Source: Sulfuriferula multivorans
GTDB lineage: Bacteria; Pseudomonadota; Gammaproteobacteria; Burkholderiales; Sulfuriferulaceae
Direction: 5' to 3'
NCBI RefSeq assembly: GCF_003851125.1
Contig: NZ_BGOW01000017.1
Location: 62,001-126,000, forward strand
Length of the DNA: 64,000 nucleotides
Positions 4,971-37,037 of the stretch are shown here, one piece after another (the stretch's first letter is position 1; the number at the start of each line of letters is the position of its first letter). The translations under genes were made by a program, and so were the position numbers. The notes under the pieces are model-generated. The model saw only the letters and a program-made list of their open reading frames with translations. It made no database searches and had not been told where the DNA came from.

Positions 4971-5759
4971 TTAAGCCGCCTGGCCGTCGATGTAGATCGC
5001 CTGGTAGCCGGTGCGCTTGAGGATCTCGATCTCGAACTGCAGGCTGGCGTAGGCCGGGTTCTCGCCGCCGCCTTTGAGCTTGAAGCTGCCGGTGGGCTTG
5101 AGGCTGACGCGCGGCATGTAGATGTCGCGGTTGGCGCCGGTCAGGTTGTTGGCCAGGAAACGCAGCCCGCCGTTGATGCTGGCCGAGACGCCGGTGGCGA
5201 TCTGGCTGCGCGTGGCGATGGCCTTGGTATAGCTCACCAGGATGGTGTCATTGGCGAGGATGGTGCCACCCACCACCGGCAGGATGCGGCCGCGTACCAG
5301 GTCGAGCAGGTAATCGGTATTCAGCGCCTTGACCGTTGCGCCGACCTTGACGCTGACCGCGCTGATATTGCGCACGCCGGTCGGGTTGGCCAGCGACGCG
5401 CCGATCTGGTAATGCAGGCCGGGAGTGACCGGGCCGCTCGATTCGTCGACTATGCTGCCGGCCGCCTGTGCCAGCGTGCTGATGCCGCCCGCGAAAAACA
5501 GCGCGATGTTGTCGTTGCTCATGTCGTCGACGGTGAGCGTCAATTTGCGGTCGATCTTGTAGGGCAGGCTGAAATCTTTTTCCACCACGTTGGTGTCGCT
5601 GTCGTAGTGGTCAAGCACGGTGCTTTGCACGCTGATCTCGCCGCCCGGCGTATTGCCGAAATAACGCTCGCCGGTCAGCACGCCGGAAGTGTTTTCCTTG
5701 TCGAAATACACCTCGCCGGAAAAGACGGAATAGGATTTGGTGAACGTGTTCAGCGGCAT
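4971..5759 (-). CDS. Major tail tube protein
   Basis: A 262-residue protein of the size and style of siphovirus tail tube proteins. It starts MPLNTFTKSYSVFSGEVYF, has beta-rich segments, and is placed between the DUF1834-like gene and the tail accessory genes. Tube subunits stack as hexamers around the tape measure. The absence of a sheath gene next to it points to a non-contractile tail of B3/D3112 type. A strong ribosome site (GAAGGAG) precedes the ATG. Confidence 0.7.
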   Translation of the reverse strand: MPLNTFTKSYSVFSGEVYFDKENTSGVLTGERYFGNTPGGEISVQSTVLDHYDSDTNVVEKDFSLPYKIDRKLTLTVDDMSNDNIALFFAGGISTLAQAAGSIVDESSGPVTPGLHYQIGASLANPTGVRNISAVSVKVGATVKALNTDYLLDLVRGRILPVVGGTILANDTILVSYTKAIATRSQIATGVSASINGGLRFLANNLTGANRDIYMPRVSLKPTGSFKLKGGGENPAYASLQFEIEILKRTGYQAIYIDGQAA

Positions 5760-6893: not shown

Positions 6894-7838
6894 TTAAGCG
6901 ACAGCGGCAGAGATCAGGTAACCGGCAGACGCACCGGCGATCACCGGGCTGACTTCGTCGGTGACCGGGTAGATCCACGATTTGGCATTGCGGTCCTGGT
7001 ACGCCTGTTCGACGATCGGGTAACCGCGCAGCCGGTAGGTGTAGCCGAACGTCGGCAGGCCCATGTCGTTGATGCCGCCGATGTCGGTGTAGGCGATGAC
7101 TACCGACTTGCCCCACACGTCGGCCATCGCGCCGGCGTCGTTTTCATAAATCGCATCGCCGACCACCACGCGCGCCACGCCGAACATCTGGGCCAGCAGC
7201 TCGGGGGTGGCGGTATCGCGGCCGGTGTACTTGATGCGGTCGATCACCTTGGGGTGGTTGCGCAGCTTGGCGAATACCGATGCGCCCATCACCACGGTGT
7301 TGGGGCGTTTGCCGATCAGCGCGCGCACCGCGTCCTTGGCGGTTTCCATGTCGGCGGCCGGGTCGGACACGCCGGTGGCGAAATCGCTCCACTGCGCGGT
7401 ACCGGCCAGCGTGATCTTGTTGGCGGCGGCATAGTTGGCGGCGGTGGTGGCCAGATCGGCCTGGGATTTTTCCAGGCGCAGCGCGATGATGTTCTGTACT
7501 TTATTGACCGCGCCGATGCCCAGGTTGATGCCCGGCACCGCGGCGGCCTCCTCCATCAGCTCATACGGCACCATGCCCTCGAGCGAGTGCGACTCCAGCG
7601 CATAGCTGCCCGAGTCGTGGCCGAACTGCACGCGCTTGGTGTTGGCGCCCGGCACGCGGCCAGTGGCGTAGAGGCGGAAATCTTCCTTGCGGAACGACAG
7701 GATCTTGCCGCCGCGCTGGCCGACGGCCACCGACGGAAACAGGTTCATGCCGACCATCTCGGAATTTTTGTAGCCCTGGGCGGCGGTGGTCAGGATCGGG
7801 TCGATCACGCGGGCCTGGGCGGGGGTCATTTGGGGCAT
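6894..7838 (-). CDS. Major capsid protein
   Basis: A 314-residue protein starting MPQMTPAQARVIDPILTTAA, with NLFPSVAVGQRGGKILSFR, an N-terminal region typical of HK97-fold capsid proteins of B3/D3112-like transposable phages. It lies after the protease/scaffold and decoration genes, in the standard head order. It is the shell subunit of the procapsid. The reading rests on family style and order, not on a structure. Confidence 0.8.
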   Translation of the reverse strand: MPQMTPAQARVIDPILTTAAQGYKNSEMVGMNLFPSVAVGQRGGKILSFRKEDFRLYATGRVPGANTKRVQFGHDSGSYALESHSLEGMVPYELMEEAAAVPGINLGIGAVNKVQNIIALRLEKSQADLATTAANYAAANKITLAGTAQWSDFATGVSDPAADMETAKDAVRALIGKRPNTVVMGASVFAKLRNHPKVIDRIKYTGRDTATPELLAQMFGVARVVVGDAIYENDAGAMADVWGKSVVIAYTDIGGINDMGLPTFGYTYRLRGYPIVEQAYQDRNAKSWIYPVTDEVSPVIAGASAGYLISAAVA

Positions 7839-7867
7839 TTTGAATCTCCTTAATTAAGCGGGGTGAA

Positions 7868-8212
7868 TCAGGCGTTGGGCAGCAGCAGCACTTCGACCAG
7901 CTGGCCGACGGCGGTGGCGGCCTGCAGCGCAATGGCAACTTTTGCACCGGCGGTCACCCAGGTGATCGCCTTGCCGGCGGCATCGGATTTGAGCGTGGCA
8001 CCCAGCGCAAACGCGGCGCCAGCAGTGACGACAGCGGTGCCGATCGCGTCCACCGGTACCTTGTCAGCGGCGACGCCTGCGGTGCGCGCCACGCCGAGGG
8101 TCGCGGCATCGGCACCGGCCGTAGCACCGGCTGGCGTGACGAAGGTATTCGCCGCGACAGTGCCGGTCAGGGTGACAGGCAGGGTTAACAGGGCAATGGC
8201 TTGTGCGCTCAT
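7868..8212 (-). CDS. Capsid decoration/cement protein (DUF2190-like)
   Basis: A 114-residue Ala/Thr/Val/Gly-rich protein starting MSAQAIALLTLPVTLTGTV, with the low-complexity beta style of DUF2190 phage cement proteins. It is encoded between scaffold and capsid genes, the usual place for a head stabilisation protein. Its start overlaps the 3' end of the protease gene by 4 nt. Confidence 0.65.
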   Translation of the reverse strand: MSAQAIALLTLPVTLTGTVAANTFVTPAGATAGADAATLGVARTAGVAADKVPVDAIGTAVVTAGAAFALGATLKSDAAGKAITWVTAGAKVAIALQAATAVGQLVEVLLLPNA

Positions 8213-8712
8213 TTTGCAGCTCCTTTGGTAACCGCCTGCACGGCGGTGAGGTAATCGGTTTTGTTGGCGGCGGCGTAGGCCAGCGTCTGGCGGTGGATCT
8301 CCATCTGGCCGGGATCGGTGCCGTAGCCGTCCGGCGCGGCGAATGCGGCGGTATCGGCGTCATCGCCTGCAGCGCTGTGCTCGGCAAACGACACCTGCTC
8401 CGGCAGGCGCACCAGGAAACTCCGGAACCAGTCGATTGCAGGCAGCGATTTGGCGTCGCCGCCCTCGCCGAACGCGATCACGCCGGTGTCGTCGGGGCCG
8501 TCCATGTACGCCACCACCGCCAGGCGGTCGGCGGGCAGCAGGCGGCCGCGTGTGATCAGCCCATCGACAAATGAAACATTCTCGGCATGGCGGGTTTCGG
8601 CACGCAGGCGCGCCATCTCGGCGGTCGCCTCGGAAAATTCAGCTTCCCTGGCGCGCAGGGCGGCGTTGTCCGCCTCCAGTTGCGCCAGGCGCTGGCGGTC
8701 AGCGTCGGTCAT
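8209..8712 (-). CDS. Overlapping in-frame scaffold protein (Mu gpZ-like)
   Basis: Inside the protease gene an ATG at 8712 is preceded by AGGAGAT at 8719-8725 with a 6-nt spacer. It would start a 167-residue protein (MTDADRQRLAQLEADNAALR) that is the whole coiled-coil scaffold part. Mu and lambda use the same nested arrangement to make excess scaffold from the 3' end of the protease gene. Translation from this site is inferred. Confidence 0.7.
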   Translation of the reverse strand: MTDADRQRLAQLEADNAALRAREAEFSEATAEMARLRAETRHAENVSFVDGLITRGRLLPADRLAVVAYMDGPDDTGVIAFGEGGDAKSLPAIDWFRSFLVRLPEQVSFAEHSAAGDDADTAAFAAPDGYGTDPGQMEIHRQTLAYAAANKTDYLTAVQAVTKGAAK

Positions 8713-9372
8713 CGGTGTATCTCCTGTGGTGGATTCGCCTTGCGGCGCGGAAAAAGCGGGTTGCGGTGTATCGGCGGGATCGTCGGGTTGTGCGGCGGCG
8801 GCCGTCAGGCTATCGACCTGGTAGCCGGGGATCACCTGGTCCGCGGTGGCCAGGTCGAATTTTTCGATCATCCAGTCGCGCAGGCTGCGGAACAGGCTGG
8901 CGACCGGATAAGCGGGCGCATCGGCGAACTCGACGGTGACCAGGTCGGCATCGTCATCGGCGAACTCGACTTGCTTGAGGCCGCGAATGGCCGGGGCGGC
9001 CGCGCCGAGAAAACCGATGTGCTTGAGGTAATAGGCGCCCGGTACCGGATTGCGCGGATGCGCCGGCGGGAAAAACGACCCCGACACGTGGCGGTAGCGT
9101 TTGGCGCGCACCAGGTCGGCGAACTGCGCCTCGACATCCACCGGCTGCGCGTGCAGGCCGTCGGCGTCGGATGCGACCTTGTCCACCCAGCCGTAAGCGG
9201 GCGCATCCAGCTGCGGATGCCCGACCACGATCGGCGCGCGGTACACGGCCGGATCGTAGGCCACGGCGGCGGCATCCAGATCGGCCTGGCTGAATTCGAT
9301 GGCGCGCCCGGCCATGTCGGTGTGACGCCCGGCGCGGAAAAAATGAATCGGTTTGAGTTGTGTATTAGCCAT
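8209..9372 (-). CDS. Phage head maturation protease with C-terminal scaffold (Mu gpI-like)
   Basis: A 387-residue protein starting MANTQLKPIHFFRAGRHTDM. Residues 1-200 form the protease part (QADLDAAAVAYDP, VGHPQLDAPAYGWV). The rest is an acidic, coiled-coil scaffold. Mu gpI cleaves the scaffold and itself during head assembly. No ribosome site is evident before the ATG. A palindrome at 9407-9422 lies 34 nt upstream, probably the activator site of this late operon. In Mu the gene follows G; here G is 23 kb away on the other strand. Confidence 0.85.
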   Translation of the reverse strand: MANTQLKPIHFFRAGRHTDMAGRAIEFSQADLDAAAVAYDPAVYRAPIVVGHPQLDAPAYGWVDKVASDADGLHAQPVDVEAQFADLVRAKRYRHVSGSFFPPAHPRNPVPGAYYLKHIGFLGAAAPAIRGLKQVEFADDDADLVTVEFADAPAYPVASLFRSLRDWMIEKFDLATADQVIPGYQVDSLTAAAAQPDDPADTPQPAFSAPQGESTTGDTPMTDADRQRLAQLEADNAALRAREAEFSEATAEMARLRAETRHAENVSFVDGLITRGRLLPADRLAVVAYMDGPDDTGVIAFGEGGDAKSLPAIDWFRSFLVRLPEQVSFAEHSAAGDDADTAAFAAPDGYGTDPGQMEIHRQTLAYAAANKTDYLTAVQAVTKGAAK

Positions 9373-20155: not shown

Positions 20156-20658
20156 GCAAGCGCATCAAGGCCAAAGCCAGCACCTACGTGCCGCAGTCGC
20201 AGGACGATTGCGCGGCCGATATCCGCCGCATCGGCGACCTGAGCCGCGAGCTGCTGCGCGGCACGACGGCGATGAACGACGAGATCGCCGCCATCACCGA
20301 GCGCTACCAGCCGCTGCTGGACACCCTCAAAACGCAGATCGAACCGCTGCAGGCCGGCGTGCAGACCTGGTGCGAGGCGCACCGCATGGAGCTGACCCGC
20401 GACGGCAAGGTGAAGAGCGCCAATTTCACCACCGGCGAGGTGCAGTGGCGCAGCCGTCCGCCCAGCGTATCGGTGCGCGGCGCGGAGGCGGTGATCGAGG
20501 TGTTGAAACGGCTCGGTCTGGCGCGCTTCGTGCGGACCAAGGAAGAGATCAACAAGGATGCGATTTTGAACGAACCCGCCGCGCTGCAGGGCGTGGCCGG
20601 GATCAGCATCAACAGCGGTATCGAGGATTTCGTGATCACGCCGTTCGAGGCGCAATAG
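20152..20658 (+). CDS. gam: Gam host-nuclease inhibitor
   Basis: 168 residues with AGGAGG before the ATG. The helical hairpin region (ITERYQPLLDTLKTQIEPLQ) and VRTKEEINKDAILNEP match the Mu Gam family, Ku-like proteins that bind double-strand DNA ends and protect them from exonucleases. Its place in the early operon fits. The following 160 nt hold no convincing gene. Confidence 0.85.
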   Translation: MSKRIKAKASTYVPQSQDDCAADIRRIGDLSRELLRGTTAMNDEIAAITERYQPLLDTLKTQIEPLQAGVQTWCEAHRMELTRDGKVKSANFTTGEVQWRSRPPSVSVRGAEAVIEVLKRLGLARFVRTKEEINKDAILNEPAALQGVAGISINSGIEDFVITPFEAQ

Positions 20659-22289: not shown

Positions 22290-22550
22290 ATGAACACGAA
22301 CCAACTTGCAGCAGCGCTACGAAACAAAGCGGAAGAGGTGCGCGAAGTAGGCGATGAGACACAACACGATCAGTTGATGCGCGATTCCTCATACCTATTG
22401 CGCGTGCTGGCCAATGTAGTTGATGGGATGCCGTTGGCCAAAGCTTTTGGCTCGCCCGGCGACTGGGGATACGACACACAGATTGGACAAGCACTGGCCA
22501 TGCCTGCGGTGCCCAAAACCACCATAGACACCTCCCCAATGGTGGTGTAG
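22290..22550 (+). CDS. Hypothetical protein before the lysis promoter
   Basis: An 86-residue protein (MNTNQLAAALRNKAEEVREV) with GGAGAGGAAATT before the ATG. It is a helical protein with a polar, Pro/Thr-rich tail. It lies between the activator gene and the late lysis promoter. No family is recognised. Confidence 0.55.
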   Translation: MNTNQLAAALRNKAEEVREVGDETQHDQLMRDSSYLLRVLANVVDGMPLAKAFGSPGDWGYDTQIGQALAMPAVPKTTIDTSPMVV

Positions 22551-26941: not shown

Positions 26942-28444
26942 ATGGCCACCAAACCACTGATGCAGGAAATCGCCACGTCTCTGGACGGGCGCGACATCAC
27001 GCGCGGATTCATCGACCCGCTGCGCGTGCAGATGCCCGACGACACGGTGCTGATGCAGCGCGGGGGCGGCGATTACACGCTGTACCGCGAGGTGTTGCGC
27101 GACGATCACGTCAAATCGTCGCTGACCCAGCGCATCCACTCGGTGATTGCGCGGCCGTGGGAGGTGCGCCCCGGCGGAAAACGCGCGATCGACAAGGCGG
27201 CGTCGGATTTTTTGAGCGAGCAGGTGCAGGCGCTGAACTGGGACAGCATTACCGAAAAAATGCTCTACGGCGTGTTTTATGGCCATGCGGTCAGCGAGGT
27301 GCTGTGGGGCATCGACAATAACCGGCTGATCATTGCCGATATCAAGGTCCGCGACCGGCGCCGTTTCGGCTACGACGGCGCCGGGCGGCTGCGCATGCGC
27401 ACGATGGCGAATTACGACGGCGAGCTGCTGCCGGACCGTAAATTCTGGCACTTTTCCACCGGCGCGGATCACGATGATGCTCCCTATGGGCTGGGCCTGG
27501 CGCACTGGCTGTACTGGCCGGTGTGGCTGAAACGCAACGGACTGAAATTCTGGGCAGTGTTTCTGGAGAAATTCGGCCAGCCAACGGCGGTGGGGAAATT
27601 TCCGGCCGGTACGTCGGACACCGACCAGAACAAGCTGCTGGCCGCGCTGCAGGCGATCCAGCGCGATTCCGCGATCATTTTTCCCGACGGCATGCAGGCC
27701 GAGCTGCTCGAGGCGACGCGATCCGGTACCGCGGATCACAAGGAATTCACCGCGATGCTGAATTCGGCCATCATGATCATCACCATCGGCCAGACCGCGA
27801 CCACGCAGGGAACGCCGGGCAAGCTCGGCAATAACAAGGAACAGGCCGAGGTGCGCAAGGACATCTCCAAGGCCGATGCGGATCTGGTGTGCATGTCATT
27901 CAACGACACGATCGCGAGGTGGTTGACCGAATACAATTTCCCCGGCGCCGCGCTGCCGCAACTGTGGCGCATCATGGACGATGAGGAAAACCTCGATACG
28001 CGCGCGACGCGCGACGAGACCATCGCCAAGATCGGCTTCAAGCCCACGTTGAAATATATTACCGATACCTATGGTGGGGAATGGACCGAGCAAACACCGC
28101 CTGCGCCGCTGCCAGCGTTACCGGTACCGGCTGTTCCAGCACCGCCAGCAGCCCAGTTCGCTGCCGATGTAGCTGCCAACCCGACGCCGATCGATCCGCT
28201 GACCGAGCGCATGGCCGTGGAGGCTGCACCGGCATTTGGCGATCTGCTCAACCAGATCCGCCTGTATGTCGAATCGGCCGAGAGCATGGAACAGCTGCGC
28301 GACTGGTTGCTGACCAGCTACGGCGATCTGGATACCGGGCAGCTGCAGCAGGTGATGGCGATCGGATTCGCCAGCGCGGATCTGGCCGGCCGATTTGATG
28401 TCGCCAATGAAGACAAACTTATTTCAACAGGAGAAATACCATGA
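26942..28444 (+). CDS. Portal protein, DUF935 (Mu gp29-like)
   Basis: 500 residues. LREDDHV-type sequence (REVLRDDHVKSSLTQRI), KMLYGVFYGHAVSEVLW and GTPGKLGNNKEQAEVR match the DUF935 portal family. It forms the DNA entry channel at one capsid vertex. Its stop overlaps the first gene of the CRISPR-like module (ATGA), which also has AGGAGA upstream, so its translation leads directly into that module. In Mu the next gene is F. Confidence 0.92.
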   Translation: MATKPLMQEIATSLDGRDITRGFIDPLRVQMPDDTVLMQRGGGDYTLYREVLRDDHVKSSLTQRIHSVIARPWEVRPGGKRAIDKAASDFLSEQVQALNWDSITEKMLYGVFYGHAVSEVLWGIDNNRLIIADIKVRDRRRFGYDGAGRLRMRTMANYDGELLPDRKFWHFSTGADHDDAPYGLGLAHWLYWPVWLKRNGLKFWAVFLEKFGQPTAVGKFPAGTSDTDQNKLLAALQAIQRDSAIIFPDGMQAELLEATRSGTADHKEFTAMLNSAIMIITIGQTATTQGTPGKLGNNKEQAEVRKDISKADADLVCMSFNDTIARWLTEYNFPGAALPQLWRIMDDEENLDTRATRDETIAKIGFKPTLKYITDTYGGEWTEQTPPAPLPALPVPAVPAPPAAQFAADVAANPTPIDPLTERMAVEAAPAFGDLLNQIRLYVESAESMEQLRDWLLTSYGDLDTGQLQQVMAIGFASADLAGRFDVANEDKLISTGEIP

Positions 28445-29775
28445 GCATCGCAGCTACATTTGATTTTCTGCGCCGTGCCGCGCAGACCGCCACGATCCGC
28501 ACCGGGCGCGGTTTCGCCGATTTCCTGACCTCGCGCATCGTGCAGGCGACCACCGAACCATCCTTGCTGGCGGCGATGGAGCGTTTGCTAAAAAGCCTGG
28601 GTAGTGACATCAGCTATATCGGCGGCGAGAAAATGGCGCGATTCATGGCTGCTGCCGGGGGCGTCGAGGCCCCCGGGCTGCTCAGCTGGTTGCGCGCCTA
28701 TCCAAACATGGCGGCCATGATTGCATTGCTGCGCAACGATGATGATTATGCGGCTGCACTGGCGAGCATCCAGCTGCCTGCTGCCCAGGTGGGCGACCGC
28801 GGTAGCGCGCCACCATCACGTCCCTGGCAGATCGGTATCAGCGCAATTTGCACCAGCCCATTGGCGCATGGCGCCGACGGCAAAGCCGGCAATGCCACCC
28901 TGTTCCGGCGCCAGCAGGTACTCAGCACCACGGGGCAGGTGCTCGATCTGCCCTTCTACGCCGGCAATGCCGTGCGCGGGCAACTGCGCGACATCCTGGC
29001 GGATCACTTCATCGGCGCGCTCGGCCTGACAGTCAGCCGGGTGCGTCCGCCGCTGGCATTGTGGTTTTTCCATGCGCTGTATGCCGGCGGCGTGCTGGAG
29101 GAGGGCGGCGGCGATGCGATCAAGGCGGTCGGCAACGAGCTGGGCAATAACGGCACCTTGCGCACCGAGGGCGTGCACCGGCTACGCGATCATCTACCTG
29201 CGCTGTCTCTGCTGGGCGTGGCGCTCGGCAATCGGGTGCTGCCGGGCCGTCTGTATGCCGGCGATCTGCGGCCGCGTTGCCGCGAGTGGGGAAACGGCGC
29301 GATCGATGCCGCCGAGCTGATGGAGTGGACGTTCCTGACGCGCCGCGAGGACCACGAGGATCACGCCGACAACCACAGCATGATCGCCAATACGGAATGC
29401 CTGCGCACCGGCACGGTGCTGGAAGGCGGCATCGACCTGGATACTCATGCCGGCGATCTGGAGCGCAGCGCGCTGGGTTGCGGGCTGGCGCTGCTACAGC
29501 AGCGCGGGCTGCTCGGCGCGGAAAACCGGCGCGGCCTGGGCAGAGTGGACATGGCCATCAGCGGCGCGCCCGATCCGGCGCTGTATCTGGACTGGCTGGC
29601 CGCTGAAAAGCCGCGCATCCTTGATTACCTGGCCGGCATCCATGCCACGGATACCAGCGGCAACGATGCGATTCTGGGCGCGCAGCGCGCCGCCAAATCC
29701 AAACCCAAAGGCAAGCCGGCGAAGGCGGCGGTTGCGCCTGAACCGTTCCAGGATGATTCGCTGGCTGGCCTGTAA
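28441..29775 (+). CDS. csf2: Csf2 (Cas7-type) CRISPR effector subunit with an extra helical N-terminal domain
   Basis: 444 residues; AGGAGA 6 nt before the ATG. Residues 1-115 are helical and small-subunit-like, possibly a fused Cas11. Residues about 127-400 look like Csf2: GNAVRGQLRD (175-184), a segment with MIANTECLRTGTVLEGGIDL (314-333), and a Gly-rich GAENRRGLGRVDM (359-371). The C-terminus is a Lys/Ala-rich linker. In type IV complexes Csf2 copies coat the guide RNA as the filament backbone. It is coupled to the portal gene upstream and to csf1 downstream (TAATG). The assignment comes from motifs and neighbours, not from a database search. Confidence 0.78.
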   Translation: MSIAATFDFLRRAAQTATIRTGRGFADFLTSRIVQATTEPSLLAAMERLLKSLGSDISYIGGEKMARFMAAAGGVEAPGLLSWLRAYPNMAAMIALLRNDDDYAAALASIQLPAAQVGDRGSAPPSRPWQIGISAICTSPLAHGADGKAGNATLFRRQQVLSTTGQVLDLPFYAGNAVRGQLRDILADHFIGALGLTVSRVRPPLALWFFHALYAGGVLEEGGGDAIKAVGNELGNNGTLRTEGVHRLRDHLPALSLLGVALGNRVLPGRLYAGDLRPRCREWGNGAIDAAELMEWTFLTRREDHEDHADNHSMIANTECLRTGTVLEGGIDLDTHAGDLERSALGCGLALLQQRGLLGAENRRGLGRVDMAISGAPDPALYLDWLAAEKPRILDYLAGIHATDTSGNDAILGAQRAAKSKPKGKPAKAAVAPEPFQDDSLAGL

Positions 29776-30440
29776 TGCACGCGGTCGACCTGATCTATTC
29801 CGCACTGGATCCGGATAATCCGGAATATCCGGTATTGCCGGGCGATCCGGTCGATGGTATCTGCTGTATCACCGGACAGAGCGGCCCATGCCTGCCGCGC
29901 AAATCGCTGCTCGGCCCGAGCTTCACCACCGGCGATTTGCTGGCATTGCCGGGCGGCACTCAGGTCGGCGTTGCCGCCTATGTCGCGCTCAAATACAAAT
30001 GGGAGCGCATGGGCGCGTGGATCTGCGATGGCAAAACCTTCCGGCGCCTCGATCGCCAGGGCGTGCGGGCTGCCGTGCTGGGCGCAGTACCCAAGCGGCC
30101 CTGGGCCGGATTTGCAACAACCAGCTATAAAAAGCATGGCGCGCTGCTGGCGCCGGTCAATAACCGCGATCGAAATGTCTGGCTGTGGAACGTGGAGCAT
30201 ATCGATTGCTCCGACCGCGAGCAGGTCGTCGAATTGTGGGATGCTCTGAATGCGGCGCTGCGCGCGGGCATCGGCCGCACGGTCATCGAGTCCCTGGATT
30301 GCCCGGCGTGGCTGCTGGAACGCATCGGCCTGGACGTATGGCTGGCATTCGTGCGCTGGGCGCGGCCTCATCACAAGAGCGGTCTGTACCGGTTTCTGAC
30401 GTATCTGCTGCCGAGCCAGGAGGAGCTGAAAAGTGCGTGA
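29775..30440 (+). CDS. csf1: Csf1-like type IV CRISPR protein
   Basis: 221 residues. Near residue 30 there is a cysteine cluster (GICCITGQSGPCLP), where Csf1 proteins carry a zinc finger. Only Cys30, Cys31, Cys39 and Cys84 are candidate ligands, so the finger looks incomplete. The part KHGALLAPVNNRDRNVWLW and following helices have the style of Csf1, the type IV counterpart of the Cas8 large subunit. It overlaps csf2 by 1 nt and the CysH-like gene by 8 nt. Confidence 0.7.
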   Translation: MHAVDLIYSALDPDNPEYPVLPGDPVDGICCITGQSGPCLPRKSLLGPSFTTGDLLALPGGTQVGVAAYVALKYKWERMGAWICDGKTFRRLDRQGVRAAVLGAVPKRPWAGFATTSYKKHGALLAPVNNRDRNVWLWNVEHIDCSDREQVVELWDALNAALRAGIGRTVIESLDCPAWLLERIGLDVWLAFVRWARPHHKSGLYRFLTYLLPSQEELKSA

Positions 30441-31131
30441 TGCGCTTTATCGCAAAGTCCATGCGCATCGGTACCGGCGCGCGATCGATGATGCCCATGC
30501 GGTGATCGTCCGGGCGCTGCAACAGGCTGGCGATGCCATCGTGGCTATCGGGGTATCCGGTGGCAAAGACAGCGTGGCAATGTGCCACCTGGTGGCCCAG
30601 CATTGCCGGCCGCTCATCATCTACAACGATTCGGGCCTCGAAATGCCGGAGAGCCTGGACATGGTGCGCGCCGTTGCGGAGCGGTTGGAGCTGGAAATCC
30701 ATATCGCCCGGGGCGATGCCGTCGCTTTGCAAGCGGCGGGATTGCGTAACTACGATGCCATTCTCGAGCCGGTACAGCGTGCCATAAGAGAGCGCGGTGT
30801 CGCTCTGGAGTTTGTCGGGCTACGCCGTTGCGAGAGCCGCCACCGGCGTATGCTGATCGGCCGCTATGGCCCGGTGCATCAGTCTATACGCTGGGGCTGC
30901 CTGGTGGCATGGCCGATGCGCAACTGGAGCAGCGGCGATGTGTTTGCCTATCTGGACGAGTACGGATTGCCCGTGCATCCGGCCTATTTGCGCTATGCGG
31001 GTATCGATCGGGACGCCATCCGCGTGTCGTGGGCATATGACCCGGACCGCCACGAGGACGGTGATGCGGAATATGTCCGCCAGTGGTATCCGGCGCTTTT
31101 TCGCCAGTTGCGAGACAAGGGATTGCTATGA
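30433..31131 (+). CDS. CysH-like PP-loop protein of the type IV-B module
   Basis: 232 residues from a GTG with AGGAG 8 nt upstream. The PP-loop SGGKDS (42-47) and YNDSGLEMPES place it in the PAPS reductase/ATP pyrophosphatase family. The C-terminal ECGLH-type motif with the catalytic cysteine of true PAPS reductases is missing, so sulfate reduction is unlikely. CysH-like genes accompany type IV-B loci, and their role there is unknown. The close packing between csf1 and csf3 supports a shared function. Confidence 0.85.
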   Translation: MRDALYRKVHAHRYRRAIDDAHAVIVRALQQAGDAIVAIGVSGGKDSVAMCHLVAQHCRPLIIYNDSGLEMPESLDMVRAVAERLELEIHIARGDAVALQAAGLRNYDAILEPVQRAIRERGVALEFVGLRRCESRHRRMLIGRYGPVHQSIRWGCLVAWPMRNWSSGDVFAYLDEYGLPVHPAYLRYAGIDRDAIRVSWAYDPDRHEDGDAEYVRQWYPALFRQLRDKGLL

Positions 31132-31769
31132 GTGACAATTTAAAAATCACGATCACGCTGGATGGCACCGGCCTGTACTACGACCCATCCGAGCCTATCC
31201 ACATCGACGCGCTGATTGCGTGGGCGCTGGCGCCGATCCAGGCGACGCAACGCAATCTGAGCCGGGATGATTTGCCGGAAGCGTTGCGCCTGCCTATTTC
31301 CAAGCGCAGCGCCGGGAATACCTGGGTATACGCCGCTTCCGCCCTGTTTCCGGAGGGCGAAACTGCGGAGACATTTACCCACTGGCGCAAGCGTTTCCGC
31401 GTCGGGCGCGCCGAGCTGACGCGCGGATCGCCCAATCTGACCAACAGCACCTACCGCGACTGGAACATGCCGATGCCATTGCTGCTCACGCATCGGATGA
31501 TCGGCTATGCCATCGGAGACCGGCGCGATTTGATTAAATTGCTGCGCCGTATTCCGGCCCTCGGCAAAAAGCGCGCACACGGCCACGGCCGCATTACTGG
31601 CGTAGAGATCGAGCGTGTGGACTATGATTGGTCGATGACCTGCGAGGGTCGCGCCATGCGCTGGTTACCAGACCCGTCCGGCACGCGCCTGGTGCGCCCG
31701 CAGCCACCGTATTGGAACCCGCATGAGAGGGTGAATTGTTGTGAAGTGGGTGATTTATGGACAGCATAG
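31128..31769 (+). CDS. csf3: Csf3 (Cas5-type) CRISPR effector subunit
   Basis: 213 residues. A RAMP-style N-terminal strand (LKITITLDGTGLYYDP), the region MPLLLTHRMIGYAIGDRRDL and a Gly-rich loop GKKRAHGHGRITG (146-158) fit Csf3, the Cas5-like subunit expected to hold the 5' handle of the guide. It overlaps the CysH-like gene by 4 nt and the F gene by 13 nt, so the module ends inside the head operon without its own terminator. Confidence 0.75.
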   Translation: MSDNLKITITLDGTGLYYDPSEPIHIDALIAWALAPIQATQRNLSRDDLPEALRLPISKRSAGNTWVYAASALFPEGETAETFTHWRKRFRVGRAELTRGSPNLTNSTYRDWNMPMPLLLTHRMIGYAIGDRRDLIKLLRRIPALGKKRAHGHGRITGVEIERVDYDWSMTCEGRAMRWLPDPSGTRLVRPQPPYWNPHERVNCCEVGDLWTA

Positions 31770-32509
31770 GCTACGATCCGCGCCTGCCGTTCACCGAGCA
31801 GATCGCGTTTTTTCTGGGTAAATCCACCAATCTGATCCCCACCAAACGCTGGACCGATCTGCTCAAAGCCCAGCACGACCGCGCATTCATGGTCGCCGGC
31901 GCGATGAAAGCGGATCTGCTGGCGGATCTGTACGAGGCCGTTGAGCAGGCCATCGGCCTGGGCACCGGCATCGGCGAATTCCGCAAGGCGTTCGACGCGA
32001 CGGTGCAAAAAAACGGCTGGGACTATACCGGCGAGCGCAACTGGCGCACGCGGGTGATTTACCAGACCAATATCAGCACCAGTTATGCCGCCGGGCGGCT
32101 GGTGCAGCTCAAGGATGGCGGTTTCAAATACTGGATGTACAAGCATTCCGATTCGGTCATGCACCCGCGCCCGCTGCACCTGAGCTGGAATGGCATCACC
32201 CTGCCTGCCGGGGATGCCTGGTGGAAAACGCATTACCCGCCCAATGGCTGGGGCTGCCAGTGCCGGATCATCGGCGTGCGCAATGCGGCCGGCGCCAAAC
32301 GCCTGGGCGGCAATATCGTGGATACGGCACCTGATGACGGCGTGGTGCCGGGCACCGATCGGCCGAAGGGAATCGATCTGGGCTGGGATTACCAGCCTGG
32401 CGCGACGGTAGTGGATGATCTGCGCAAGCAGCTATCATCCAGGCTGGCCAGCCTGCCCGCGCAAATTGCAGATGCCCTCAAAAAAGACCTGCAGGGGCCA
32501 TCCAAATGA
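31757..32509 (+). CDS. Phage head morphogenesis protein F (Mu gp30-like)
   Basis: 250 residues. RTRVIYQTNISTSYAAGRL, HPRPLHLSWNGITLPAGDAW and NGWGCQCRI are hallmarks of the Mu F/SPP1 gp7 minor head protein family. It is shorter than Mu F at the C-terminus. It follows csf3 with a 13-nt overlap and overlaps G by 4 nt. Confidence 0.9.
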   Translation: MDSIGYDPRLPFTEQIAFFLGKSTNLIPTKRWTDLLKAQHDRAFMVAGAMKADLLADLYEAVEQAIGLGTGIGEFRKAFDATVQKNGWDYTGERNWRTRVIYQTNISTSYAAGRLVQLKDGGFKYWMYKHSDSVMHPRPLHLSWNGITLPAGDAWWKTHYPPNGWGCQCRIIGVRNAAGAKRLGGNIVDTAPDDGVVPGTDRPKGIDLGWDYQPGATVVDDLRKQLSSRLASLPAQIADALKKDLQGPSK

Positions 32510-33024
32510 TCACCATTATTGCGGATGATAAAGCGGTCATCGAGGCGCTGAACCAGCTGCGTGCCAGGACATCGCACATGCTGCCGCTGATGCAGGATAT
32601 CGGCGAGCTGCTGAGCGAGACGACCAAGCGGCGATTTGATACCTCGACTGCGCCGGATGGGACACGCTGGGCGGTGAATAGCGAGGTGACGATCCTCAGA
32701 TACCTGGGTGATAATAAGGGTAGCTACACGAAGGCCGGAAATCTATCTAAAGCTGGCAAGCAGCGTTCAGGTTCAAAACGCCCATTGATTGGGTTGACCG
32801 GAACATTGCAAAGTACGATCGATTATGATGCGCAGAATGACTCTGTGGTGATCGGCAGCCCTAAAAAATACGCAGCTACCCAGCATTTCGGTGCCAAAAA
32901 ACACGAGTTCAAAGGTGTGGCGCCGTGGGGAGATATCCCCGCCCGTACGATATTTGGCGTTAGCTCCAGCGACCATAATTCGCTGTTGGAGCTAATCAAC
33001 GAGTATCTCGACCCGGCATCGTAA
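32506..33024 (+). CDS. Phage virion morphogenesis protein (Mu gpG/gp31-like)
   Basis: 172 residues. ETTKRRFDTSTAPDGTRW, GLTGTLQSTIDY and AATQHFGAKKH fit the phage virion morphogenesis family (tail completion/head-tail joining). The 3' half is less GC-rich than the neighbouring late genes. It is the last gene of the head operon; in Mu the protease would come next. Confidence 0.87.
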   Translation: MITIIADDKAVIEALNQLRARTSHMLPLMQDIGELLSETTKRRFDTSTAPDGTRWAVNSEVTILRYLGDNKGSYTKAGNLSKAGKQRSGSKRPLIGLTGTLQSTIDYDAQNDSVVIGSPKKYAATQHFGAKKHEFKGVAPWGDIPARTIFGVSSSDHNSLLELINEYLDPAS

Positions 33025-33053: not shown

Positions 33054-33082
33054 TTGTGTGTAGGGCAAATATGCCCTAACAT
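33054..33082 (+). promoter_or_regulatory. Promoter with a 16-bp palindrome in its spacer (candidate acr-type operon)
   Basis: TTGTGT (33054-33059), a 17-nt spacer and TAACAT (33077-33082). The palindrome AGGGCA-AATA-TGCCCT (33062-33077) fills the spacer and touches the -10 box. A protein bound there would shut the promoter, as Aca proteins do at anti-CRISPR promoters. Confidence 0.6.
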
Positions 33083-33160
33083 TTAATCACTGGAGCAAAC
33101 AATTGCACCAGCCTGATCCAGCCCAGGAGCGGCTCGGAACCAAGATAGAGGTAATAGATC

Positions 33161-33430
33161 ATGAGCGACTTAACCTACAACGGCATCAACCTGACACTCA
33201 CCTCGGACGCTGACTATAGTAATCGTTTATTGCCAGGTGGATATGTCAACTACCATGAGGCGAGCGCTGGTGAGGCATACGACTTTGAGATGCAAGCCAC
33301 TGCAACCGATGAGGCTGGCAACAGCTACCTCGTCTACTGGATATACGAGGGCGTCAAAGGAGATGATGACCGTCCATTAGACTGGTACGACTACAGCTCA
33401 GACGAGATTGACCGGATAGAGGTGCAATAA
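33161..33430 (+). CDS. Small, very acidic protein (candidate anti-CRISPR or moron product)
   Basis: 89 residues with many Asp and Glu and few Lys or Arg, rich in Tyr and Trp. It starts MSDLTYNGINLTLTSDADYS and ends with DWYDYSSDEIDRIEV. It is the first gene behind its own repressible-looking promoter, in the position after G. The charge resembles DNA-mimic proteins. No family is recognised, so the anti-CRISPR idea is based on position and architecture only. Confidence 0.6.
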   Translation: MSDLTYNGINLTLTSDADYSNRLLPGGYVNYHEASAGEAYDFEMQATATDEAGNSYLVYWIYEGVKGDDDRPLDWYDYSSDEIDRIEVQ

Positions 33431-33437
33431 GGCAACC

Positions 33438-33457
33438 CAGGCCGCTTCGGCGGCCTG
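33438..33457 (+). terminator. UUCG hairpin after the acidic gene
   Basis: CAGGCCGC-TTCG-GCGGCCTG is a perfect 8-bp stem with a stable tetraloop. It lacks a T-tract. It may attenuate or stabilise the transcript so that the acidic protein is made in excess of the two downstream genes. Confidence 0.5.
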
Positions 33458-33476
33458 ACATGACATGGAGATCATT

Positions 33477-33719
33477 ATGCGTACAACAGTAATCATCACA
33501 AAACGCGGCGAAGGCTACATCAGCACCGTGTCCGGGCAGTTCGGAGGCGGTCATCAGGGTGCCCGGTGTGGACTTACTCCTTATGAGGCCGCATCAGCAG
33601 CAGCCCGATATATGATCGAGTATGCGCAATCAAATCCGGATGGTGGCGATCTGATGGCGCCAGCCGAAGTGCTCGATCTGGTGCCTGAGCATTTGAGGGC
33701 AATCAAAGCGTATGGTTAA
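33477..33719 (+). CDS. Hypothetical small protein in the same operon
   Basis: 80 residues with GGAG 6 nt before the ATG. It reads MRTTVIITKRGEGYISTVSG, a beta-strand-rich start, then a helical half (EAASAAARYMIEYAQ). It overlaps the next gene by 8 nt. No family is recognised. Confidence 0.6.
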   Translation: MRTTVIITKRGEGYISTVSGQFGGGHQGARCGLTPYEAASAAARYMIEYAQSNPDGGDLMAPAEVLDLVPEHLRAIKAYG

Positions 33720-33993
33720 TCAAAATCTGATCGAATCATGGCTCGCCGTGATGATGATCCCCGGCATGACCACGGCTCAGGCGATCCGTGACCTAAACGA
33801 CGAGCTGGGCACGCTCTACACAGCTCAGGATTTTGGCAAGTTCCGCCGGGGTTCTCGACCAATCCCCCAACCGATGCAGGATTACATGCTCCGGTGTGCG
33901 ATCGGCTATGCGATCGGCCAGTCTGGAGTCAGCATCGACGATGATTTGCTGGATGGGATTGTCGATCGGCTCGTTCCCCCAAAGCGCCGCTGA
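33712..33993 (+). CDS. Small possible DNA-binding protein (candidate Aca-like regulator)
   Basis: 93 residues; TTAQAIRDLNDELGTLYTAQ followed by DFGKFRRGSRPIPQPMQDYM looks like a helix-turn-helix with a recognition helix ending in a basic patch. It is the last gene of the operon whose promoter carries a palindrome, which is where an autoregulator (Aca) would be. The HTH reading is tentative. Confidence 0.55.
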   Translation: MVNQNLIESWLAVMMIPGMTTAQAIRDLNDELGTLYTAQDFGKFRRGSRPIPQPMQDYMLRCAIGYAIGQSGVSIDDDLLDGIVDRLVPPKRR

Positions 33994-34311
33994 TTTCTGC
34001 CTGTTTTTTTGTTTCTCTGTGCGAAAATGTTTTTTATTTTTTTGTTTTCTTTTTCCCGCTTAATCCTTAAATATCTCGCGTAATCCCATTAAATATCTCA
34101 CTCCCCCTCATGGCACCCCACCGTACCGGCCCTGCGGGCTACCCTCGAATTGCCGGGAAAGCCGGGCGGCTGCGGAACTCGCGCTGCGCGCTCAGACAGT
34201 CCTCGCCGACTACCCCCGGCTTGATCGGCAAATCGAGGCGGCGCAGAAGGGGATAAAACCGGATTAGGGTTCAATTGTTATTGCACCCTGCGTTTTTCAA
34301 CTTTCTGTTAA
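33994..34311. other. Non-coding right edge of the prophage and junction to the host
   Basis: No convincing gene is present. The first 60 nt are T-rich. Then come two direct repeats (34061-34102), a GC-rich stretch with short inverted motifs, and a degenerate REP-like half-element (34266-34290, TTATTGCACCCTGCG). The exact phage-host junction cannot be read from one sequence. No 5-bp target duplication can be shown without the other end. Confidence 0.5.
34061..34102. repeat. Pair of direct repeats, possible transposase end sites
   Basis: TAATCCTTAAATATCTC (34061-34077) and TAATCCCATTAAATATCTC (34081-34099) repeat at a distance of about 20 nt. Mu-type phage ends carry repeated transposase binding sites of about this size. 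Only two units are present and the terminal dinucleotide is not certain. Confidence 0.5.
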
Positions 34312-35220
34312 ATGGATCAAATCGTGCGCATGCTTGCCCTGAAAATTGACGTTGACACCTACCGCGGCACCCGCGAAGGCGTACCGCAACTGGTGCGGAT
34401 GCTGCAGGCCCATCAGGCCGGCGCGACTTTTCTGTTCAGCCTCGGACCCGATCATACGGGGCGGGCGCTGCGCCGGGCGTTCCGCCCCGGCTTCATGAAA
34501 AAGGTGTCGCGTACTTCGGTGCTGGAGCACTACGGCCTGAAGACGCTGCTCTACGGCACGCTGCTGCCGGGGCCGGACATCGGCCGCAAGTGCGCCGACA
34601 TATTGCGCAGCGTGCGTGATGCCGGTTTCGAGACCGGCATTCATACCTTCGACCACGTCAAATGGCAGGATTATGTGGCGAGCAAGGACGCCGCATGGAC
34701 GCAGCGCGAAATGGCGCGTGCGATGCAGCGTTACACGGAAATCTTCGGCCAGCCCGCTCCTACCCACGGTGCGGCAGGCTGGCAGATGAACGACGCTGCG
34801 TTCGTGCAGGAACAGCAATGGGGCATGGCGTATTGTTCCGATTCGCGCGGCACCCATCCTTTCATCCCGCTGCTGACGAATGGTCAAACCAGCTGCCCGC
34901 AACTGCCCACCACGCTGCCCACGCTGGATGAACTGATCGGCGCCGACGGCGTGGATACCGAAAATGTCGCCGACGCCGTGCTGGCGATGACCCAGGCTGA
35001 TTCACCTACCGGCCATGTCTATACCCTGCATGCGGAACTCGAAGGCATGAAACTCGCACCCGTGTTTGAACGCCTGCTCGCCGGCTGGCAACGCCAGGGC
35101 TACACACTGGTTTCAATGGCGGATTATTTCGCTGCGCTGGATGTGGCCGCCTTGCCGCGTCTTGCGGTCAGCCTGCGAGAAATCCCGGGCCGCTCGGGCA
35201 CGCTTGCAGTGCAGGGCTGA
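34312..35220 (+). CDS. arnD: ArnD deformylase (polysaccharide deacetylase family)
   Basis: 302 residues. The NodB-type fold is visible (ALKIDVDTYRGTREGVPQL with catalytic Asp, and FETGIHTFDHVKWQDY with the metal-binding His pair). ArnD removes the formyl group from undecaprenyl-phosphate Ara4FN at the inner membrane so that L-Ara4N can be moved to lipid A. The arnT-like gene follows, which supports it. It is the first host gene after the prophage, so its native promoter may have been separated by the insertion. Confidence 0.85.
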   Translation: MDQIVRMLALKIDVDTYRGTREGVPQLVRMLQAHQAGATFLFSLGPDHTGRALRRAFRPGFMKKVSRTSVLEHYGLKTLLYGTLLPGPDIGRKCADILRSVRDAGFETGIHTFDHVKWQDYVASKDAAWTQREMARAMQRYTEIFGQPAPTHGAAGWQMNDAAFVQEQQWGMAYCSDSRGTHPFIPLLTNGQTSCPQLPTTLPTLDELIGADGVDTENVADAVLAMTQADSPTGHVYTLHAELEGMKLAPVFERLLAGWQRQGYTLVSMADYFAALDVAALPRLAVSLREIPGRSGTLAVQG

Positions 35221-35256
35221 TGCGGGACAATTAAGCAAACTGTAAGTCAGGTCAGT

Positions 35257-35262
35257 TATAAT
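35257..35262 (+). promoter_or_regulatory. Possible -10 box upstream of arnT
   Basis: TATAAT lies in the 131-nt gap between arnD and the arnT-like gene. No good -35 box at 17 nt is seen (TTAAGC is about 20 nt away), so this is only a weak promoter call. Confidence 0.35.
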
Positions 35263-35351
35263 CCGCCCCGTCCGGAAATAATTCAGCTGAAACAAACTCA
35301 GCATTTTCTCCGGATGCACTGCCGCCCATAAAAAAACAACTGAGCAAATTC

Positions 35352-37037
35352 ATGGCAAACAACATTCAGCCTGACCGGCTTGCAAGCAGTGGGCTGAATC
35401 AGGGCATCGAATCCCCCCGTTTACATATCTCTTTTGGCTGGTTTCTGCTGCTGGCAACGGCGTATGTATTACCGGGCCTGATCGGGCACGACCCCTGGAA
35501 GCAGGATGAAACCTACGTCTTCGACATCCTCTACCAAATGTTGAGCCGTCATGACTGGATCGTGCCGCACCTGGCAGGCGAGCCTTTCATGGAAAAACCG
35601 CCGCTGTATTACTGGCTGGGTGCGGCGCTGGCTCGCATTTTTTCAGGCTTGCTGCCGCTGTATGACGGCGCGCGTCTGGCCACCGGCGTATTCATGGCGA
35701 TCACTTTCCTGTTTGCAGGGCTGACGGCGCGACATGCCTGGGGAACGGGACATGGCCGCTACGCCGTGCTGGTGCTGATGAGCTGCTTTGGCCTGCTCTA
35801 CGAGAGTCACATCATGATCACCGATGTGCCGATGCTGGCCGGATTTTCCATCGCCAGTTACGGCTTTATCCTGAGCCGCGCGCGCCCGCTGGCGGCGGGC
35901 ATCTGGCTTGGTGTCGGTGTCGGCGTCGGCTTTCTCGGCAAGGGCGTGCTGGTTCCGGGTGCGGTCGGCGTAACCGCGCTGCTGCTGCCGCTGTTATTTC
36001 AAAACTGGCGCAGCAAAACCTACGCGCGCAGCCTGGGCGTGGCGTTTGTGGTCGCGTTGCCGTGGCTGCTGATCTGGCCGATTGCCCTGTATCTGCGCGA
36101 CCCGCATCAGTTTTACGTGTGGTTCTGGCTCAATAACGTCGGCCGCTATCTGGGCTTTTCGGTTGCCGAACTGGGCGCCAACAACGAGCCCTGGTTCTGG
36201 CCGGAAACGCTGCTGTGGTTCGCCTTCCCGGCCTCGTTGCTGGCGCTGGCGAGTGTGTGGCAACGGCGTCATGAGATTCGCCGCAGCGCGCCGCTGCAAT
36301 TGGGTCTGGTCAGCTTTGGCGTGTATCTGACGGTGCTGCTGACTTCAGCTTCGGCCCGCACGTCTTACGGCCTGCCCATGCTGGCGGCGCTGGCGCTGCT
36401 GGCAGCCCCGCAGGCGGCGACGCTGCCCGCTGCTCTGAGCCGCTGGCTCGATTGGGGCGCGCGGCTGTTTTTCGGTACGCTGGCGGCGCTGTTCTGGGGC
36501 GTCTGGGGCAGCATGATCGCCACCGGCCACGCGCCTCACTGGACGTTCCTCACGCGCGTGTTGCCCGCCGATTTCGTCATGCCGTTTCTGCCGCTGGCGG
36601 TCGGTGTCGCGGCCGTGGCGACGCTGGTCTGGCTCGCCGCCTGGTATGGCCTGCCGCGCCTGCAAGAGCGCGCCATCGTGAGTTTTGTCGCCGGACTGAC
36701 GCTGTGCTGGCTGTTGTTTGCCACACTGTGGCTACCGTGGCTGGACAACGCCAAAAGCTACCGCAGCGTATTTGTGGCAATGCAACCGAATTTGCCTGTA
36801 CAGCACAACTGTGTAGCAAGCATCGGCCTGGGCGAATCGGAGCGCGGCATGCTGGATTATTTTCTCGGCGTGCAAACGCTGCGCCGTGAAATTCACCCTG
36901 ACATTGATTGCGACGTAGTACTGGTGGAAGGCTCGGCGGATACGCCGCCCGGCCTGCCTGGGCCGGCTTGGCACCAGGCATGGCAGGGTGGGCGGCCCGG
37001 AGATAACAAGGAGCATTTCTGGCTGTTCGTACGCTGA
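35352..37037 (+). CDS. arnT: ArnT-like lipid A glycosyltransferase (GT39/PMT family)
   Basis: 561 residues with about a dozen hydrophobic segments. The N-terminal catalytic loop is clear (GHDPWKQDETYVFDILYQML, MEKPPLYYWLGAALA). ArnT moves L-Ara4N from undecaprenyl phosphate to lipid A in the periplasmic leaflet, lowering the negative charge. The C-terminal soluble part is shorter than in enterobacteria. The substrate is inferred from arnD; another GT39 sugar is possible. Confidence 0.8.
   Translation: MANNIQPDRLASSGLNQGIESPRLHISFGWFLLLATAYVLPGLIGHDPWKQDETYVFDILYQMLSRHDWIVPHLAGEPFMEKPPLYYWLGAALARIFSGLLPLYDGARLATGVFMAITFLFAGLTARHAWGTGHGRYAVLVLMSCFGLLYESHIMITDVPMLAGFSIASYGFILSRARPLAAGIWLGVGVGVGFLGKGVLVPGAVGVTALLLPLLFQNWRSKTYARSLGVAFVVALPWLLIWPIALYLRDPHQFYVWFWLNNVGRYLGFSVAELGANNEPWFWPETLLWFAFPASLLALASVWQRRHEIRRSAPLQLGLVSFGVYLTVLLTSASARTSYGLPMLAALALLAAPQAATLPAALSRWLDWGARLFFGTLAALFWGVWGSMIATGHAPHWTFLTRVLPADFVMPFLPLAVGVAAVATLVWLAAWYGLPRLQERAIVSFVAGLTLCWLLFATLWLPWLDNAKSYRSVFVAMQPNLPVQHNCVASIGLGESERGMLDYFLGVQTLRREIHPDIDCDVVLVEGSADTPPGLPGPAWHQAWQGGRPGDNKEHFWLFVR

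Follow-up and report, generated by a model that had tools for sequence, protein, structure and literature searches.

A candidate anti-CRISPR operon with an AcrIF5-like protein and a conserved leader RNA in a Mu-like prophage

How a prophage can live in a cell whose own CRISPR array carries spacers against it is the question raised by this locus. The window, a 64-kb stretch of DNA (C17:62001–126000) from a genome of 3.6 Mb in 87 contigs, contains a Mu-like prophage that is also present as a viral contig of 43,058 bases; the phage type is given by gene G (PF05069) and an F-like gene upstream of it. The explanation favored here, with a probability of roughly 0.75, is that small genes downstream of G form an anti-CRISPR operon, which lets the prophage live in a host that targets it. 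A candidate operon of this kind had already been proposed in the preliminary description of the DNA, and it is now supported by three independent lines: the fold and sequence of its second product (B84), which resemble those of the inhibitor AcrIF5; the site and gene order, which are those of an acr operon in phage JBD5; and self-targeting by the type I-C system of the host.

The self-targeting is seen directly in the genome. A search by Cas1 gave a single match, within a type I-C operon in which cas3, cas5, cas8c, cas7c, cas4, cas1, and cas2 are all open; Cas1c, Cas7c, most of Cas8c, Cas4c, and Cas2c were typed by PADLOC, and cas3 and cas5 were assigned by eye. A HicBA-like toxin–antitoxin pair, also assigned by eye, lies between cas7 and cas4 (L043:16855–17486, minus strand). 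In the array, 41 repeats enclose 40 spacers; a BLAST comparison of the whole array with the whole genome gave, among the 40 of 45 candidates that were scored, eight places outside the array. All of them are in the prophage, and they match eight spacers, seven of which align over the full spacer. The five protospacers with no or one mismatch (Table 1) are all immediately preceded by TTC, the usual PAM of type I-C systems. The remaining matches belong to spacers 19 (four mismatches) and 20 (three mismatches), flanked by TTT and GTC rather than TTC, and to spacer 24, whose match spans just 24 bases. In spacer 25, targeting may be weakened by the mismatch, which lies close to the PAM. Within the array (L043:11816–14713), spacers 36, 37, and 40, which are among those with the best prophage matches, lie near the cas2 end, and spacer 40 is the very end next to cas2; this arrangement suggests recent acquisition against this phage or a very similar one. 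Open cas genes, spacers matching a resident element, and a fitting PAM are thus found together, and a cell that targets itself in this way should die unless its CRISPR system is inhibited or inactive. In Xanthomonas albilineans, the same logic led to AcrIC11 and AcrIF12Xal, as described in PMC10810201.

Table 1. Positions in the window of the operon, its control elements, and the prophage protospacers.
Feature	Position	Strand	Basis and remarks
Gene G (virion morphogenesis)	32506–33024	+	Pfam PF05069, 82 bits; marks the insertion site
Candidate core promoter TTGTGT, 17-base spacer, TAACAT	33054–33082	+	Read from the sequence; weak
Perfect inverted repeat TAGGGCA-AATA-TGCCCTA, candidate operator inside the promoter spacer	33061–33078		Repeat search
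Conserved leader RNA, 3′ end on the first gene's start codon	33110–33163	+	Sister-operon comparison, covariation
Leader stems	33112–33115/33124–33127 and 33139–33141/33150–33152	+	Second stem overlaps the ribosome-binding site
A89, acidic protein of 89 aa, candidate second Acr or DNA mimic	33161–33430	+	ORF, pI 4.05
Hairpin AGGCCGC-TTCG-GCGGCCT in the A89/B84 gap	33440–33457	+	By eye; perfect seven-pair stem
B84, AcrIF5-like protein of 80 aa (or 84 aa)	33477–33719	+	Fold and sequence comparison
C93, 93 aa, encoded at the operon end; positional candidate for an Aca-like regulator	33712–33993	+	ORF
Protospacer of spacer 40	5624–5657	−	BLAST; 0 mismatches, 5′ TTC
Protospacer of spacer 36	20240–20273	−	BLAST; 1 mismatch (position 31), 5′ TTC
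Protospacer of spacer 37	22516–22549	−	BLAST; 0 mismatches, 5′ TTC
Protospacer of spacer 25, portal gene	27220–27253	−	BLAST; 1 mismatch (position 4, PAM-adjacent), 5′ TTC
Protospacer of spacer 27, portal gene	28236–28270	−	BLAST; 1 mismatch (last, PAM-distal position), 5′ TTC

Downstream of G, three consecutive ORFs are found on the plus strand (A89, B84, and C93), in agreement with the small operon that had been reported directly after this gene. As had also been reported, the first of them codes for a strongly acidic protein: the pI of A89 is the lowest among the 79 ORFs selected in the window, with 19 D/E against 4 K/R. The emphasis that the preliminary description placed on this acidic protein has had to shift, since the operon call stands, but the recognizable Acr homologue is the second gene, B84. 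The frame of B84 extends over 33465–33719 (84 aa), and the start used in its homologues is the ATG at 33477, which gives 80 aa. C93 begins eight bases before the end of B84, and the hairpin between A89 and B84 is not followed by a run of T. The operon thus groups small genes at a site where Mu-like phages are known to carry acr genes. Relatives of G are present in 52 of 50,697 phage records, five of which were opened for their neighborhood. In JBD25, ThpS-P1, and Fc02 the protease gene I directly follows G, as the protease does in the related viral contig L042, whereas three genes lie between G and I in RS1 and four small genes follow G in JBD5. Because the junction is empty in some phages and filled in others, G/I is regarded as an insertion site for extra genes. 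The order in JBD5 is G, AcrIE1, a 139-aa gene, AcrIF5, Aca1, and then I; the 139-aa gene is presumably AcrIF3, and AcrF3 is listed at its position in one record. The expected location between G and the protease holds in JBD5 but not in the present prophage, whose protease I lies at 8209–9372 on the opposite strand.

Several other features of the prophage were observed. The protease, scaffold, and capsid genes occupy 6894–9372 of the minus strand, and the block at 12770–33993 is on the plus strand, so that the protease-to-tail part is inverted relative to the early-to-G part; one breakpoint is close to where the protease gene starts and the other immediately follows the operon, which is on the G side. 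This inversion could stem from an intramolecular transposition event, and the resulting block order may have left the phage defective. Just past the operon, at 34068–34101, the sequence TAAATATCTCRC occurs twice as direct copies 22 bases apart, possibly as transposase end sites. Host-like genes, recognized by eye, begin near 34312, and arn-like genes (lipid A aminoarabinose), also by eye, flank the prophage at 34312–37037 and C17:44272–50360; the prophage seems to be inserted inside an arn cluster. Between the portal gene and the F-like gene (28441–31769) there are type IV-like cas genes, namely Csf2, a weak Csf1, a CysH-like PAPS reductase, and Csf3, whereas portal and F adjoin each other in the related contig L042. 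According to a review, CysH occurs in subtype IV-B, and type IV systems are found in some prophages (PMC11656645). The phage thus appears to combine an anti-CRISPR operon with type IV Cas proteins.

By its predicted fold and its sequence, B84 looks like a distant, divergent relative of AcrIF5. An AlphaFold model of B84 (built from 13 sequences; pLDDT 91) was compared with the PDB by Foldseek, and AcrIF5 chains (7F45, 7EQG) took ranks 1–4 with an E-value of 1e-4 and TM scores of 0.78/0.81, the next unrelated chain having an E-value of 0.068. VIA-align superposed the model on AcrIF5 over 74 residues with a Z-score of 12.2 (rmsd 1.8, 26% identity); the next unrelated chain scored 5.6. The AcrIF5 of JBD5, which is the AcrIF5 of the PDB, was aligned with B84 by hhalign at an E-value of 4e-6 (probability 87; 33% identity over 45 columns), in the same register as the fold match. 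The profile score of 13.7 bits was reached by none of 5000 shuffles (4650 scored, best 9.2), and the best of 435 background ORFs scored 4.9 bits. An open profile search of the PDB placed AcrIF5 only at rank 2 (E 0.42), and sequence alone is therefore insufficient to settle the relationship; what has been found is likeness of the predicted fold over the whole protein, together with sequence similarity beyond chance. Nineteen other viral contigs contain relatives of B84 that are 57–84% identical over 76 residues or more, and L071 adds a partial match; in bacterial genomes, a scan gave a Nitrosomonas MAG (L029, 76%) and, in Cephaloticoccus (L030), a truncated copy. There were none in annotated phages or plasmids, and two fragments in 368 other genomes of the class were left out of the counts. 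A tblastn search with JBD5 AcrIF5 recovered close copies only, in 24 of 50,697 phage records, 23 of which are Pseudomonas phages; the B84 branch would thus extend this family to 20 further viral contigs, including a partial one. In PMC13131331, AcrIF5 is described as an inhibitor of type I-F that locks DNA-bound Cascade and blocks Cas3 recruitment.

The two other proteins are less easily placed. As with B84, no match was found for A89 or C93 in PHROGs, Pfam, PADLOC, or NCBIfam. Relatives of A89 occur in Paenibacillus phage BN12 and in three other viral contigs, beside differing genes; no acr or aca label was present among their neighbors in the one annotated record, and the neighbors in the contigs read were unlabeled. 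It has no relatives in plasmids, and among 18 genomes of the family it was found in its own genome only; two weak matches within long frames, in 369 genomes of the class, were left out of the counts. A model of A89 (pLDDT 86) gave no PDB match at E ≤ 0.001 in a fold search. A match to a repeated lectin in the single-sequence PDB search had an E-value of 9e-4 summed over four stretches, the best single one being 5.6, and was attributed to chance. Many AcrIC proteins, the DNA mimic AcrIF2 among them, are described as highly acidic in PMC7913775, which also notes that some inhibit two subtypes. A89 is probably a second inhibitor and perhaps a DNA mimic.

Relatives of C93 were found in four Halomonas plasmids and four further genomes of the class, and none in annotated phages or viral contigs. 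No HTH family or structure matched C93 or the six relatives tested, and the single-sequence PDB search gave a best E-value of 1.3; a match between the profile of its relatives and phosphoglycerate mutase in the PDB (E 0.024) was judged to be chance. When C93 was compared with Aca1 and two HTH proteins, the similarity was not significant (for Aca1, the score was matched by 14 of 2000 shuffles, with an hhalign E-value of 0.15). C93 is thus a candidate regulator by its position, and of the acr–aca pairing first suggested for the operon, the acr half is upheld through B84, but no test identified C93 as an HTH protein. Genes with an HTH- or ribbon-helix-helix-like look are found downstream of B84 in L029, L033/L055, L057, L067, and L068 (about 190 bases beyond B84 in L068); a Pfam scan of four of them gave matches above the curated cut-off in L067 (HicB) and L068 (HTH_23) and below it in L029 and L057. 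The promoter and palindrome of the preliminary description were likewise retained in part. The two boxes are present, TTGTGT starting at 33054 and TAACAT at 33077, but they are a poor sigma70 match, absent from the consensus scan list, and the sister operons have better promoters in the alignment. The inverted repeat in the spacer is perfect, but its length alone is within chance: of 100 shuffled windows, 11 held one or more matches when as many as two mismatches were allowed, and when the upstream stretch was shuffled 200 times, the arms reached 7 bases in 17 cases.

The unexpected part of the operon is a leader element, the anti-CRISPR nature of the operon itself being a well supported prediction. 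In sister operons, the same stretch precedes the first start codon although the first genes differ. A pattern search found this leader in nine viral contigs, all with B84; seven had inspired the pattern, and L031 and L033 were new. Among ten loci, both sides changed in six of seven pairs and 98.6% of cells pair, with a covariation score of 0.71 against 0.23 for shuffled alignments (reached by 0 of 500) and at most 0.21 for slid versions, in stems that had been picked by eye on the same sequences. Compensatory changes across loci are thus present in the proposed stems. RNAalifold agrees on the second stem only and pairs the region around the first hairpin otherwise; the 4-base stem with an AUCC-type loop is preferred because all four of its pairs covary. 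Single-sequence folding gave no strong z-score in the eight leaders tested (−1.8 for the window), so that the case for the structure rests on covariation.

A covariance model built from these ten loci was run on 38 sources. There are 22 distinct B84 loci (the window, L052–L071, and L029, with L071 partial), 14 of which gave a match with an E-value of 1.2e-5 or better whose end coincides with the first gene's start codon; four of the 14 (L056, L059, L061, and L065) were outside the training set. Two weak matches are correctly placed, in L063 (E 0.019) and L058 (E 0.064). By the model, the leader is absent from L054, L057 (which has only 177 bases upstream), L067, L068, and L070, and no match at E ≤ 1 was obtained in 14 sources without B84 or in L030. 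Some other matches were left out: that of L071 (E 3e-5), which overlaps the B84 remnant, and those at 1833 in L063, 7088 in L059, and 38362 in the window (E 0.12 to 0.93). A second, weaker copy in L052 (3685–3726, E 0.005) ends on a start codon further down the operon; it was left out of the count, and the element may be repeated within one operon. In 368 other genomes of the class, five matches with E-values of 2e-4 to 5e-3 were found among the best 15 candidates scored per genome, which is about chance level at the per-genome limit of 0.01. The 16 first genes preceded by the leader are mostly unrelated, only three of 120 pairs being alike at E ≤ 0.01, and some loci have an additional small gene separating B84 from the first gene.

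In Rfam, nothing overlaps the leader of the window at E ≤ 10, and no family reached its gathering score on the leaders of ten sister loci; a literature search found nothing that joins a riboswitch or leader with anti-CRISPR. Judged from the literature and Rfam searches alone, the element is taken as undescribed. The leader probably controls translation, its structure being backed by covariation. Since the last genes differ among the operons and B84 is shared, B84 is one candidate for its reader. Aca2 reportedly binds RNA as well and controls translation; a literature search on Aca2, RNA-binding, and translation found nothing.

Taken together, the favored mechanism would be as follows. The operon, inserted at the G/protease site and probably transcribed from its own promoter, would produce three small proteins. 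By analogy with AcrIF5, B84 would most likely bind the type I Cascade and keep Cas3 from degrading the target, and A89 would act as a second inhibitor, perhaps by mimicking DNA. C93 would probably act as the repressor, with the palindrome between the promoter boxes as its target, and the leader RNA before the first start codon would probably add a control of translation. In this way, the operon would protect the prophage from a type I-C array with five near-perfect spacers and probably explains the joint survival of the prophage and the CRISPR-bearing cell. Counting against this is that AcrIF5 is known as an inhibitor of type I-F, whereas the single Cas1 of the host belongs to type I-C; we know of no AcrIF5 activity on type I-C.

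In a second version, the operon is indeed anti-CRISPR, but A89, as an acidic DNA mimic, inhibits the type I-C system and B84 acts on type I-F or another system in other hosts. The assignment of AcrIF5 to type I-F in PMC13131331, the extreme pI of A89 in the window, and the acidity of many AcrIC proteins in PMC7913775, the DNA mimic AcrIF2 among them, speak for this version, but the A89 model lacks a PDB match at the threshold used and the neighbors of its relatives carry no acr or aca label in the annotated record and are unlabeled in the contigs; it is a serious contender at somewhat under even odds. A wider reading, which we consider tentative and rather doubtful, is that the leader marks a class of anti-defense operons in unrelated phages, in which hairpins lie over the starts of differing inhibitors, the AcrIF5-like protein or a common host factor is the reader, and this branch of AcrIF5 is active on type I-C.

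The remaining alternatives take the protection away from the operon. A silent or inactive type I-C system, in which self-targeting is tolerated and the operon is irrelevant to it, would have a precedent in cas gene mutation, a known escape from self-targeting (PMC10810201); all seven cas genes are open, however, the spacer at the cas2 end is one of the two perfect prophage matches, as if recently acquired, and an AcrIF5 homologue is present, all of which makes a silent system unlikely. Protection might also come from another locus, either a mobile element or the type IV Cas proteins of the phage, leaving the operon as a general anti-defense moron. The prophage does carry type IV cas genes, but the similarity to AcrIF5 and the JBD5-like site and order point to the operon, and we regard this as quite improbable. 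Finally, the genes would be ordinary morons unrelated to CRISPR if the AcrIF5 match were a coincidence of a small alpha/beta fold. Small folds do recur, and the open profile search gave an E-value of only 0.42; this is nevertheless very hard to reconcile with the gap between the Z-scores of AcrIF5 and of the next unrelated chain, with a collinear sequence similarity that no shuffle attained, and with the same genomic site and order. The significance of the operon lies partly in the fact that a candidate Acr occurs here together with a self-targeting type I-C system whose genes are open, so that the prediction can be put to a direct test. In addition, a leader that precedes 16 first genes, most of them unrelated to one another (14 matches are clear and two weak), is a possible search tool for new inhibitors, and, if the operons do form a leader-marked class, the leader would be a bait for unknown anti-defense genes.

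The closest known counterpart of B84 is AcrIF5 of JBD5 (PDB 7EQG, 7F45), with which it shares the fold, the length (80 aa in B84 and 79 aa in AcrIF5), and a collinear C-terminal half. Both are products of the penultimate gene, which overlaps the last one (Aca1 in JBD5 and C93 here), and both operons lie at the site between G and protease I of a Mu-like phage. They differ in sequence, with about 26–33% identity, and in the host, that of B84 having a type I-C system and no second Cas1. As a whole, the acrIE1–acrIF3–acrIF5–aca1 operon of JBD5 has in common with the present one its site, the short gene overlap, the position of the last (regulator) gene, and palindromes, seen by eye, upstream of the first gene. 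On the other hand, its first gene is a different one, C93 is not clearly Aca1-like, and the leader covariance model has no match in JBD5 (L072), unlike in the B84 operon. A further counterpart is provided by acr promoters under Aca control. As a rule, according to PMC9410906, Aca operators are palindromes inside the core promoter, with the regulator gene in the operon; the repeat at 33061–33078 fits this position, although C93 belongs to no HTH family recognized here. Finally, the work on X. albilineans described in PMC10810201 involves other Acr families, whose activity has been shown there and is predicted for the B84 operon; the two cases resemble each other in that several type I self-targeting spacers are tolerated beside endogenous Acrs, which in the present prophage would be the products of the operon after G.
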